From the NCBI RefSeq assembly GCF_021088345.1, contig NZ_CP088156.1, positions 3,534,001-3,598,000 of the forward strand: a stretch of DNA of 64,000 nt, read 5' to 3'. A model generated the notes under the pieces. The model was not told where the DNA came from. It saw nothing but the letters and a program-made list of their open reading frames with translations, and did not search any database. The DNA comes from Bradyrhizobium ontarionense. Its GTDB lineage: Bacteria > Pseudomonadota > Alphaproteobacteria > Rhizobiales > Xanthobacteraceae. Both the position numbers and the translations under genes were made by a program. Shown here piece after piece: positions 4,889 to 57,658 of this stretch; position 1 is the stretch's first letter, and each line of letters begins with the position of its first letter.

Positions 4889-5047
4889 GGTGTCGTCCCG
4901 GACAAGCCACGATGCGCGCCAGCGCATCGTGGCGCCGATCCGGGACCCATACGCCGCGGCGGACGTGATGGGCAAAAAGCCAATCACCAGCATGCCTCAA
5001 ACCGCTCCCTGGGGGTATGGGTCCCGGGTCAAGCCCGGGACGACACC
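4889..5047. repeat. GTCGTCCCGG palindromic repeat unit
   Basis: GGTGTCGTCCCGGACAAGCC at the left end is mirrored by a complementary GGGACGACACC at the right end. Inside is a second inverted pair around a GATGCGC/GCGCATC stem. Another copy, sharing the internal GGACCCATACGCCGC-type stretch with minor changes, lies at 57229-57385. Confidence 0.75.
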
Positions 5048-5262
5048 GGAAGGCAGTGCGACGTCTTCTGAATAAAATAAATATATTGCGCTTTTTCGGA
5101 AATCATGATTGTATCCTCGCATCCCGCCTCAAGCAGAAGGGGCGTTGCGCGCGATCGTCACGACACGCGAGGCGGGGAGCGATGGCCGCGAGAGGTCGCA
5201 GCAGGCTCTTGAACGAGCATGCGGACGAACGGCGTCTTGCGGACGCGAAGTCGCAGCGTCCT

Positions 5263-5473
5263 GACACCCCGATGCTGGTGTCCAGCGCAATGCGTGCAAG
5301 CGCATTGTCGCCATGGTGGCCAACAAGCCCGGCGCACCAGGGAGACTGCGTATAAGCGTGAAGACCGTCGCGCAGGGAATGCCGGTTGATCGGCACCACC
5401 TGTGGTACCTGCCGCCTGCATTTTTTTTGAGCAGGCGGGCCATGGGTGAGGCCTTCACCCGGCATTCCCTGCG
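5263..5473. repeat. Highly conserved structured repeat, copy 1 (two hairpins plus cloverleaf)
   Basis: Two hairpins come first: GACACC/GGTGTC (5263-5282) and CAATGCG/CGCATTG (5288-5307). A 15-bp closing stem CGCAGGGAATGCCGG (5371-5385) with CCGGCATTCCCTGCG (5459-5473) then encloses three more stems. These are ACCAC/GTGGT (5395-5406), CCGCCTGC/GCAGGCGG (5412-5438, loop rich in T) and GGGTGA/TCACCC (5444-5460). The last shares two bases with the closing stem. The second copy at 56851-57059 has the same stems and differs at only a few bases, while the flanks are clearly diverged. Whether it is transcribed is unknown. Confidence 0.75.
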
Positions 5474-5664
5474 CCCTCTGCACTGTTTGCGAGGGACAGA
5501 CTGATCACAGACCTCGGGCAACATCTGCTGCGAGAACGCAAAGCCATGTCGATCGTTGTTTGAATCGTGAATCCGCCTCTCCCACCGCTGTCGTCCCGGA
5601 AGGCCGGGACGACAGCGGCATTGTTCAGGCGTTGCGATAAGATCGACAACTCCGAAGCATGCTG

Positions 5665-5814
5665 CCGTAGGGTGGGCAAAGGCGCGTACGCGGCGATACG
5701 CCGCGTACGCGCCGTGCCCACCACTCTGCATCGCGCGTGCGACGGTGGGCACGGCGCGCACGCCTTTCTTCACACGCGGAAGCAGCGTCGCCGCGCGCCT
5801 TTGCCCGCCCTACG
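5665..5814. repeat. GTAGGGTGGGC palindromic intergenic repeat, copy A
   Basis: The ends CCGTAGGGTGGGCAAAGGCG and CGCCTTTGCCCGCCCTACGG are near-perfect inverted copies. Internal arms are GCGTACGCGGCG/CGCCGCGTACGC and GTGCCCACC/GGTGGGCAC. Copies B and C are at 57435-57584 and 62811-62900. The right end overlaps the last codons of the small membrane peptide gene at 5810. Confidence 0.8.
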
Positions 5815-5953
5815 GCTTCTCAGCCTCGCGCTCCCTGGCCTCGCGCTCGGCGCGCTGGCGGTCGAGGCGGCGGCCTTGCCATTCCAGCACCAGCCAGCCG
5901 GCGACGCACAGCGCGACGATGACGAATTCGAGCAGGCCGCCCATCTCGCTCAT
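5810..5953 (-). CDS. Small single-span membrane protein, 47 aa, function unknown
   Basis: My translation gives 47 residues: MSEMGGLLEF, then a hydrophobic segment of about 15 residues (VIVALCVAGWLVLEW, 11-25), then a highly charged Arg/Glu-rich tail (RRLDRQRAEREAREREAEKP). This is one N-terminal transmembrane helix with a cytoplasmic amphipathic or coiled tail. It lies 133 bp downstream of crtB on the same strand, so it may be the last cistron of that operon. A five-codon frame (ATGAGTGACACGCCATGA) overlaps its start and could couple translation; no strong ribosome-binding site is evident. I do not recognise the family. Confidence 0.55.
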   Translation of the reverse strand: MSEMGGLLEFVIVALCVAGWLVLEWQGRRLDRQRAEREAREREAEKP

Positions 5954-9664: not shown

Positions 9665-10633
9665 TCACGCGCCGGCCGCGCGCGTCTGGAAATCATCGTA
9701 GCTGGCTACGACTTTATCAAGCTGTTCGAACTGCGGCAGCGCGCCGGTCTGCAACACCTCGATCTGCCAGTTCGGCAGCCCCTCCACGGCATGCTTGCCC
9801 TGGTAATCGACGAAATCACCGCGCACGCCATGCACCATCCACACCGGCATCGACAGCGCCTGATAGAGCTTCAGCGCATGGACGCTGAACATGTATCCGG
9901 ACACGAAGGAGTACGGCGCGTTCTCCGCACCGGGCTGGTGGGTGGTGATGTAGTCGTACTCCAGCAGCCCCTCGTCGATGTCCTTCCGACCGAAGGTCTT
10001 GCGCAGGAAGAAGCGGATGCTGGCCCGCGACGTCAGCAGCGAGAAGAAGCGCTGTTTCCACAGCGGCACGGTGAAGATGTTGCGCAGCCACGGCATGGCG
10101 CGGGTCGCATCCTTGTCGCCGCCCTTCTTGGCCGCCGCTTCCGCGCGGCGATCGAGGCCCGTCGGGCTGATCAGCCCGAGCGTTCGAAACAGGTTGGCCG
10201 CCTCGGTGCCGGCGCGTGCGGCGAACTCGCAGCTCAGCGACAGCGCGATGGCATCGATCGGCGTATCGCCGTGACGGCGGCGAATTTCTTTCGCCGCCAG
10301 CAGGATCGCGTCGGTCATGATGCGCGGCGTGTAGATGCGGTCGGCGCGGTCCGACAGGCCGAAGCCCGGCAGGTCGAACGCATAGACCTGACGCGTGTGG
10401 CGGTAGTGCTCGAACAGCGGCTTCATCTCGTAGGCCGTCGCCGCGGCATTGACGCTGTGGATCAAGAGCAGTGGCCGCTGCTCGGTCGGCGCGGTGGGTC
10501 CGTCGCCGTAGCAAGTGATGCGGCCGCAGCGCGAATCAGCGAGCTCGAAACGCGGCGCGGCGAGCGGCGGCGGCATCGTCACGGCGCGCGGGGCCGCTGC
10601 ATGATCACTCTGTGTGGTCGAGGCGACCTGCAT
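9665..10633 (-). CDS. Alpha/beta-hydrolase-fold protein inserted between bchD and bchO, probably lacking the catalytic His
   Basis: A 322-aa alpha/beta-hydrolase-fold protein with LLLIHSVNAAATAYEMKP as oxyanion-hole region, VYAFDLPGFGLSDR after strand 4, and a nucleophile elbow ALSLS (Ser132) in place of the usual GxSxG. Near the C-terminus, where BchO has GHLAHEEQP, this protein has GALPQFEQL, so the expected catalytic His appears to be Ala. That suggests a non-hydrolytic or altered activity. A good ribosome-binding site (AGGAG, 6-bp spacing) precedes ATG 10633. Its position inside bchI-bchD-x-bchO ties it to pigment synthesis, but I do not know a specific role. Confidence 0.85.
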   Translation of the reverse strand: MQVASTTQSDHAAAPRAVTMPPPLAAPRFELADSRCGRITCYGDGPTAPTEQRPLLLIHSVNAAATAYEMKPLFEHYRHTRQVYAFDLPGFGLSDRADRIYTPRIMTDAILLAAKEIRRRHGDTPIDAIALSLSCEFAARAGTEAANLFRTLGLISPTGLDRRAEAAAKKGGDKDATRAMPWLRNIFTVPLWKQRFFSLLTSRASIRFFLRKTFGRKDIDEGLLEYDYITTHQPGAENAPYSFVSGYMFSVHALKLYQALSMPVWMVHGVRGDFVDYQGKHAVEGLPNWQIEVLQTGALPQFEQLDKVVASYDDFQTRAAGA

Positions 10634-56604: not shown

Positions 56605-56850
56605 AAGAGAGAACTCGCAGATCACTCGGATCCATCGCGAGGCCAGCCCGCCAAGACTTCTGAAAAAAATAAATCTCTTGCGATTTTTCGGAATTCATGG
56701 TTGTCTGCGCCCATCCCGCCTCACTGCGGAGGGGCGTTGCGCGCGATCGTCACGACACGCGGGGCGGGGAGCGATGGCCGCGAGAGATCGCAGCGTGTCT
56801 TCGGATGCGCCGACGAACGATCGCTTGCGGACGTGAAGTCGCAGCGTCCT

Positions 56851-57059
56851 GACACCCCGATGCTGGTGTCCAGCGCAATGCGCGCAAGCGCATTGTCGTC
56901 ATGGTGGCCAACAAGCCCGGCGCACCAGGGAGACTGCGTATAAGCGTGAAGACCGTCGCGCAGGGAATGCCGGTTGATCGGCACCACCTGTGGTACCTGC
57001 CGCCTGCATTTTTTTAGCAGGCGGGCCATGGGTGAGGCCTTCACCCGGCATTCCCTGCG
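56851..57059. repeat. Highly conserved structured repeat, copy 2 (two hairpins plus cloverleaf)
   Basis: Same layout as copy 1 at 5263-5473. The hairpins GACACC/GGTGTC and CAATGCG/CGCATTG are kept, as is the closing stem CGCAGGGAATGCCGG (56959-56973) with CCGGCATTCCCTGCG (57045-57059). Differences from copy 1 are few: one base in a hairpin loop, one between elements, and the length of the T-rich loop. Confidence 0.75.
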
Positions 57060-57228
57060 CCCTCTGCATCTATCAGGAGGGACGAACTAATCGTACGCCT
57101 CGGGCATCACATGCCGCGAGAACGCGCTGTCGTGTGGCGGCTGATCGATCTTGGTCCCGCTGATCGATACGCTCCCCGATCGAGATACGACTTGGCTGTT
57201 TGAGATGTGAATCCGCTCCCCACACCGC

Positions 57229-57385
57229 TGTCGTCCCGGACAAGCCGCGACGCGCGACAGCGCGGCACGGCGCCGATCCGGGATCCATACGCCGCGGCGG
57301 ACGTGATGTGCGAACCGCTCATGACGAGCCTGCCTAACACGACTTCCTGTGGTTATGGGTCCCTGCGTTCGCAGGGACGACACCG
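57229..57385. repeat. GTCGTCCCGG palindromic repeat unit, second copy
   Basis: Starts GCTGTCGTCCCGGACAAGCC and ends with CAGGGACGACACCGG. The inner part shares the GGATCCATACGCCGCGGCGG-type stretch with the copy at 4889-5047. Confidence 0.7.
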
Positions 57386-57434
57386 GTGTTTGTTGAGGCG
57401 TTTGGGACGAAATCGGCAGATCCGGAGCGCGCTG

Positions 57435-57584
57435 CCGTAGGGTGGGCAAAGGCGCGCACGCGGCTATCGGCCGCGTGTGCGACGTGCCCACCATCAGCAT
57501 CGAACGCGGCACGCGGTGGGCACGGCGCGCGCCGCATCTTTTGCAGGCCGAGACAGTGCAGCCGCGCCTTTGCCCACCCTACAC
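57435..57584. repeat. GTAGGGTGGGC palindromic intergenic repeat, copy B
   Basis: GTAGGGTGGGCAAAGGCGCG at the left is mirrored by GCGCCTTTGCCCACCCTAC at the right, with inner GTGCCCACC/GGTGGGCAC arms. Compare copies A (5665) and C (62811). Confidence 0.8.
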
Positions 57585-57658
57585 GCCCTCATTTCCACCC
57601 CGCCCGATCAATGCTAATGCCGTAGAGGACCCGCCCGATCCATACCGAGGAGGCATCG

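Follow-up and report, generated by a model that had tools for sequence, protein, structure and literature searches.

The window, a 64,000-nucleotide stretch of the Bradyrhizobium ontarionense genome, carries two copies of a repeat unit that occurs in at least 142 full-length copies in this genome and that is most probably (about 70%, judged from sequence) an independent, dispersed gene for a structured noncoding RNA, one member of a many-copy family. The first-pass annotation had described a near-identical structured element in two copies and offered three explanations, a small RNA, a transcript-processing signal or the conserved end of a mobile element, of which the small RNA is the best.

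Alignment of 30 same-genome copies in one orientation revealed conservation reaching far beyond positions 5263-5473, and a whole-unit profile HMM of 505 positions matches most copies nearly end to end. The unit is directional, about 500 bp long and more than twice the size of the core reported earlier, whose limits were too narrow, with the promoter and further helices lying outside them (Table 1). The near-identity of the two cores reported in that annotation holds, as does the greater divergence of their flanks: within the unit, copies 1 and 2 are about 84-85% identical 5' of the core and 64-73% identical 3' of it. Other palindromic intergenic repeats, of the GTCGTCCCGG.. and GTAGGGTGGGCAAAG.. 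types, lie beside both window copies. In nine copies from other Bradyrhizobium genomes (L132-L134, L136-L140, L142), about 100 nt are inserted between the 5' domain and the remainder.

Table 1. Features of the two copies of the unit and of their surroundings (window coordinates)
Feature	Position	Strand	Remarks
Copy 1 of unit: promoter, structured RNA, conserved 3' end	5066..5572	+	profile HMM match, model positions 2-503 of 505
-35-like hexamer TTGCGC	5086..5091	+	first two T in 96% and 95% of 142 copies
-10-like hexamer TTGTAT	5109..5114	+	17 bp after -35 box; weakly conserved in B. ontarionense
Inferred transcription start A	5121	+	column 57, seventh base past -10 box; purine in 99% of copies
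5' hairpin P1 (CCCGCCTC/GAGGCGGG)	5122..5177	+	loop region is the IS110-type insertion place in other copies
Central multi-branch domain, closed by GCGATGG (5179-5185)/CCGTCGC (5365-5371)	5179..5371	+	closing stem 94-100% paired in 142 copies; fold
Core of copy 1	5263..5473	+	segment compared for homogenisation between copies
Hairpin GACACC/GGTGTC	5263..5282	+	columns 195-199/208-212; two pairs above all nulls
Hairpin CAATGCG/CGCATTG, variable length	5288..5307	+	covariation weak, alignment uncertain there
Hairpin TGGTG..CACCA, conserved loop	5314..5339	+	columns 249-256/269-274; two pairs above all nulls
Terminal domain: 12-14 bp stem around CCGCCTGC/GCAGGCGG (T-rich loop) and GGGTGA/TCACCC	5372..5472	+	covariation
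Hairpin CCCTC/GAGGG	5474..5495	+	92-99% paired
Hairpin CTCGGGC..GCGAG	5513..5534	+	outer four pairs 98-100% paired
Copy 2 of unit	56658..57213	+	profile match 56658-57148, model positions 2-494
Copy 2 inferred -35, -10 and +1 A	56678-56683, 56701-56706, 56713	+	boxes read from sequence
Core of copy 2	56851..57059	+	98% identical to 5263-5473
Copy 2 3' motif GCTGTTTGAGATGTGAATC	57195-57213	+	after extra sequence
Palindromic repeats near copies 1 and 2	4890-5045, 5585-5615, 5665-5815, 57220-57395, 57440-57585

The predicted RNA comprises about 450 nt and some ten helices, and would start at A5121. Taken alone, the 211-nt core folds at -114.9 kcal/mol, compared with -83.7 +/- 4.8 in shuffled sequences (z -6.5). 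To assess covariation we assembled 142 distinct copies from the B. ontarionense and other genomes, a set different from the 142 genomic copies and equal to it in number by chance, and compared it with 20 null alignments that preserve tree and column rates, produced with our own script. Eight column pairs scored above every one of the 20 nulls; all of them lie within nested helices and seven are 94-100% canonical. At E below 1 there were 17 pairs, 14 in helices and three (178-288, 178-290 and 35-42) that are not canonical helix pairs, which indicates that the null leaves some subfamily linkage. Many weaker pairs fall in these same helices, both within the core and in the 5' half; also kept across copies are hairpin P1, the stem that closes the central domain and both hairpins at the 3' end. 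In a 56-sequence MAFFT alignment, which is not structure-fitted, 97.2% of helix cells are paired against 38-48% with slid partners, the covariation score is 0.270 against 0.035-0.073, and two-sided changes occur in 16 of 39 pairs.

The two hairpins and the long stem described in the first-pass annotation lie at the positions it gave. Among the three short stems of its cloverleaf, compensatory changes bear out the stem with the T-rich loop and GGGTGA/TCACCC; ACCAC/GTGGT, on the other hand, is not conserved, its three outer positions pairing in 8-36% of copies. CCTGTGG may instead pair with CCATGGG (98-100% paired, with a two-sided change in only one cell), an energy-predicted helix that clashes in three bases with the covarying GGGTGA/TCACCC.

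Upstream of the fold, promoter-like boxes also occur outside the genus. Copies from another genus (g165) have TTGACA as the -35 box and a TATAG-containing box at -10. In a pair of near-identical copies from another genus (G678), similarity starts at CTTGACA, at the 5' limit of the unit, and continues into a TATAG-containing box; the G449 pair lacks a clear TTGACA box where the G678 pair carries one. The one copy read from a genome of another family (G425) has TTGACT and TGCTAC-like boxes and keeps the terminal domain and the following hairpin. In some copies (L014, L024, L147, L170), the usual TTTTTCGGAAATCA promoter region is replaced by another upstream module, TGCCCGTCG..CGTCGGGCAAATCA. From the conserved boxes and purine we infer transcription from a sigma-70-type promoter, and the RNA ends are likewise predictions; a T-tailed terminator was not recognised where the unit finishes.

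The unit does not encode a protein. Across columns 60-470, stops interrupt 135, 125 and 139 of the 142 copies in the three forward frames and 131, 115 and 120 in the three reverse frames, so that a protein-coding unit is ruled out and proteins predicted through the repeat would be artefacts, as the first annotation had suspected. The unit combines two marks of an independent noncoding RNA gene, a conserved secondary structure with compensatory changes and no conserved open reading frame; a promoter and start site of its own are predicted from sequence conservation. A partial match in a Bradyrhizobium sp. Ash2021 plasmid (L275) lies under a hypothetical-protein CDS, NL528_RS46580, a possible misannotation.

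The composition of the helices also tells which molecule folds. Their cells contain 476 G-U and 119 A-C combinations, an approximately fourfold excess pointing to the plus-strand RNA as the folding molecule. This one-sided ratio bears on the idea of a DNA-level repeat of the REP/BIME kind, acting as a cruciform, a protein-binding site or a recombination site with no RNA role. Such a repeat would be intergenic, dispersed and hairpin-rich, like the unit, and the palindromic repeats beside both window copies would fit it; it is nevertheless quite unlikely, given also the conserved promoter-like stretch and purine start and a unit that is directional, about 500 bp long and non-palindromic as a whole, where a REP or BIME is a short palindrome of 20-40 bp.

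Covariance models R1 and R2, which represent the terminal domain and the hairpin before it, were used to count copies. In the 8.44 Mb B. ontarionense genome, R1 (terminal domain) recovered the 142 full-length copies at 137.7-181.5 bits, a density of about one per 59 kb; the next eight of the 150 scored matches reach at most 45.6 bits and each lies opposite a copy already counted. The two copies first described were accordingly an undercount, and 142 is itself a lower bound, like the counts in other genomes, as degenerate or truncated copies may have been missed. Elsewhere in the genus, full-length copies number at least 53 in G302 (plus two weaker), 37 in G339, 25 in G472, 20 in G280 and 17 in G021.

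With copy 1 as BLAST query, 86 of 149 genomes matched; 83 of these belong to the genus, which was represented by 89 genomes (its own included). Across the order, R1 matched 22 of 397 genomes: all 15 of the genus, two from other genera within the family, and five from outside the family, four of the latter with weak matches. The broader R2 found 117 of 248 genomes in the family (17/17 in the genus, 100/231 outside it) and 23 of its 47 genera, that is 22 of the 46 besides Bradyrhizobium, with between one and at least 11 matches per genome in these other genera, usually few. At least three copies are present in G449, of another genus, and at least six matches in G425, of another family of the order. 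In the class sample only three of 385 genomes matched, two of them in the same genus, so the unit is rare elsewhere in the class. Named carriers, all Bradyrhizobium, include BTAi1, STM 3843, STM 3809 and B. aeschynomenes, in a list biased to close kin by the exact search pattern taken from B. ontarionense copies; we take these to be mostly Aeschynomene symbionts.

Mobile replicons were searched with two query copies. Copy 1 matched none of 72,556 plasmid records and the second query matched a single one, weakly and in part; 50,697 phage records gave no match with either, and a pattern search found one IMG/VR contig. These results speak against a plasmid or phage origin. The contig, labelled viral, has a copy at 10150-10320 (L251) and may be bacterial DNA carried along.

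We then considered the genomic arrangement. In B. ontarionense the copies avoid each other: against a null of uniform placement, which ignores gene layout, only 3 gaps are shorter than 10 kb where 21.9 are expected, and the coefficient of variation is 0.75 against 0.99. Gaps under 20 kb number 21 against 40 expected, 7 between same-strand and 14 between opposite-strand copies, which makes direct-repeat deletion unlikely as the whole cause. Five other genomes together have 3 gaps under 20 kb against 15.0 expected; by the coefficient of variation alone, the effect is significant only in G302 (P 0.01, in a list of 55 that takes in two weak matches) and not in G339, G280, G472 or G021. Taking base 1 as the origin, 112 of 154 copies in these five genomes are co-oriented with replication, and 66 of 142 in B. 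ontarionense, a number that leads us to claim no replication-strand bias. In G339 and G302, 30/37 and 39/55 copies, respectively, point away from this assumed origin on both chromosome halves.

Gene context was read for 63 usable B. ontarionense copies out of 81 loci; two copies overlap a predicted coding sequence. In 43 of these 63 the next gene downstream is encoded on the other strand, so the unit is not typically a 5' leader. Downstream genes that face the element would suit a 3'-UTR, a terminator or a processing signal of neighbouring genes. We regard this as very unlikely, since only 36 of the 63 upstream genes run in the direction of the unit and one G425 copy lies, by eye, between minus-strand and plus-strand reading frames that point apart, with promoter-like boxes of its own. 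The gene context therefore lends no support to the transcript-processing signal suggested earlier.

How the family is maintained can be read in part from related genomes. Many copies adjoin the same genes in related species, at comparison loci chosen for carrying the element, and in the tree about ten sets cluster by locus (e.g. L011, L048, L040, L021); sets L163, L159, L167, L177, L010, L016, L004 and L025 with L026 do not. Within the tree-concordant syntenic orthologue sets, pairing survives 60 of 85 changes that affect one side of a pair, where 46% would be expected for single changes, and 32 of 34 that affect both sides; divergence is 0.054 at paired and 0.121 at other sites. Over all 18 orthologue sets, the figures are 100/133 one-sided and 91/101 two-sided changes kept, and 0.075 against 0.137, comparisons within a set not being independent. 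Some copies are thus inherited in place while their helices are preserved, and the selection on structure that the first-pass annotation proposed is supported both by this and by the covariation.

Its further proposal, that structural selection makes the core more alike than the flanks, holds in part. In 34 comparisons of the core, the best paralogue from the same genome was closer than the orthologue in 22, tied in 4 and more distant in 8; the paralogue, as the best of many and chosen by core, is favoured here, some orthologues are truncated at the ends of stretches, and for some pairs synteny holds on a single side. In SSBR45G, each window copy has a counterpart with one flank in common. The cores of the two window copies are 98-99% identical, whereas that of copy 1 is 90% identical to its SSBR45G orthologue (that of copy 2 is cut by the stretch end). 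The 22 of 34 suggest that a good part of the extra likeness of the two cores probably comes from gene conversion between copies, added to the effect of selection on structure. That the core is conserved through conversion only, with incidental folds, is hardly credible: similarity does track genome over locus in those 22 comparisons, but such a reading is contradicted by covariation across copies and genomes and inside the tree-concordant orthologue sets.

The unit also spreads by some route, as near-identical copies occur at unrelated sites, some of them 91-96% identical over the unit (the G678 and G449 pairs). Clean empty sites were sought for four B. ontarionense copies in up to eight genomes: for one of them the syntenic site lacks the element in BTAi1, G048 and G051, and for a second STM 3843 has a 3' remnant, the intergenic regions being too diverged for exact insertion ends. 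Together with a copy number that varies from 1 to at least 142, these observations make a non-autonomous mobile element, SINE-like or MITE-like, the main rival to the RNA gene; a helper enzyme would recognise its RNA or DNA structure and the host would gain nothing. We consider this possible but clearly the less probable reading. Terminal inverted repeats and a target-site duplication, by which a MITE or other non-autonomous DNA transposon is recognised, did not show on visual inspection of two recent pairs, G678 (L267/L268) and G449 (L265/L266), a limited test as no clean empty site was obtained. We do not favour the mobile-element end suggested earlier. Moreover, similarity in the G631 pair runs upstream into a shared neighbouring stretch, the unit begins at the promoter in the G678 pair, two queries gave a single weak plasmid match and no phage match, some copies are inherited in place with compensatory changes, and copies avoid each other. 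A site near genes that we take, from their translations, to be ahcY and metK is common to two genera with different intervening genes, which is suggestive only.

The repeat itself appears to be a target for insertion. An IS110-family element of about 1.3 kb (Pfam PF01548, PF02371) occupies an identical position within the 5' hairpin in three B. ontarionense copies (L005, L020, L170), and a roughly 90% similar one adjoins L157 and L076; this element seems to target the repeat.

A known RNA family was ruled out: Rfam 15 gave no match in the whole window at the gathering cut-off, and relaxed searches (E up to 1) of the stretches with copy 1, L199 and L185 gave 4, 2 and 2 matches, all far below the cut-offs. 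The large ornate RNAs GOLLD, ROOL and HEARO resemble the predicted RNA in size, multi-domain structure and strongly conserved stretches. Unlike these and OLE, the unit has no Rfam match, and none of the four is known to have nearly as many dispersed copies per genome. OLE is likewise large and multi-domain with strongly conserved stretches (PMC10898510, PMC9723947). Within Bradyrhizobium, Hahn et al. (2016, PMC5082802) describe Br-REP1 and Br-REP2, short palindromes with a consensus of 20 to about 40 nt, with counts of about 200 sites and at least 50 intergenic regions. These are, like the unit, many-copy intergenic elements with stem-loops; the unit differs in its length of about 500 bp, its directionality and its promoter-like start, and the printed consensus sequences differ. 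Small-RNA-yielding MITEs (PMC5896051) are also short dispersed units, but the inverted repeats and target duplications that characterise them were not seen in the two pairs described above. We found no description of the unit in the open-licence literature, including the accessible parts of PMC5082802, PMC4842269, PMC11109978 and PMC8632094; one may be in print elsewhere.

Mechanistically, we propose that a sigma-70-type promoter would start an RNA of about 450 nt. Its predicted fold has a 5' hairpin and a closed multi-branch domain, followed by a long terminal stem that bears arms and by two hairpins on the 3' side. Selection on the RNA structure would keep the genes, of which there are at least 142, full length, with cores homogenised by gene conversion. 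The high dispersed dose, with no gene evidently constant beside the unit, speaks for an RNA that acts in trans, perhaps in an RNA-protein particle; it would most likely do so as a housekeeping or structural RNA, probably protein-bound, with a dose high in Bradyrhizobium and low in related genera. A functional parallel, with no homology claimed, may be naRNA4, an E. coli nucleoid RNA from REP325 that is also a noncoding RNA from repeated chromosomal elements (PMC6907758); naRNA4 derives from a REP element, whereas the unit here forms dispersed single genes. An RNA of the naRNA4 type would be expected to bind HU and to bridge DNA. A rather unlikely extension is that transcripts of some 140 spaced RNA genes form an RNA-protein scaffold that organises or marks the chromosome, in which case selection would preserve each copy whole and maintain the distance between copies.

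Structured RNA genes of this size are not usually found in so many intact copies. If the unit is transcribed, few structured RNA genes in bacteria would to our knowledge be as highly repeated. The unit, absent from Rfam 15, belongs to a genus central to nitrogen fixation, and could serve to correct hypothetical proteins annotated across it. It also offers an apparent case of concerted evolution of a dispersed bacterial RNA gene, in relatives that range from one detected copy to at least 142, which makes the dose and function of the RNA testable.
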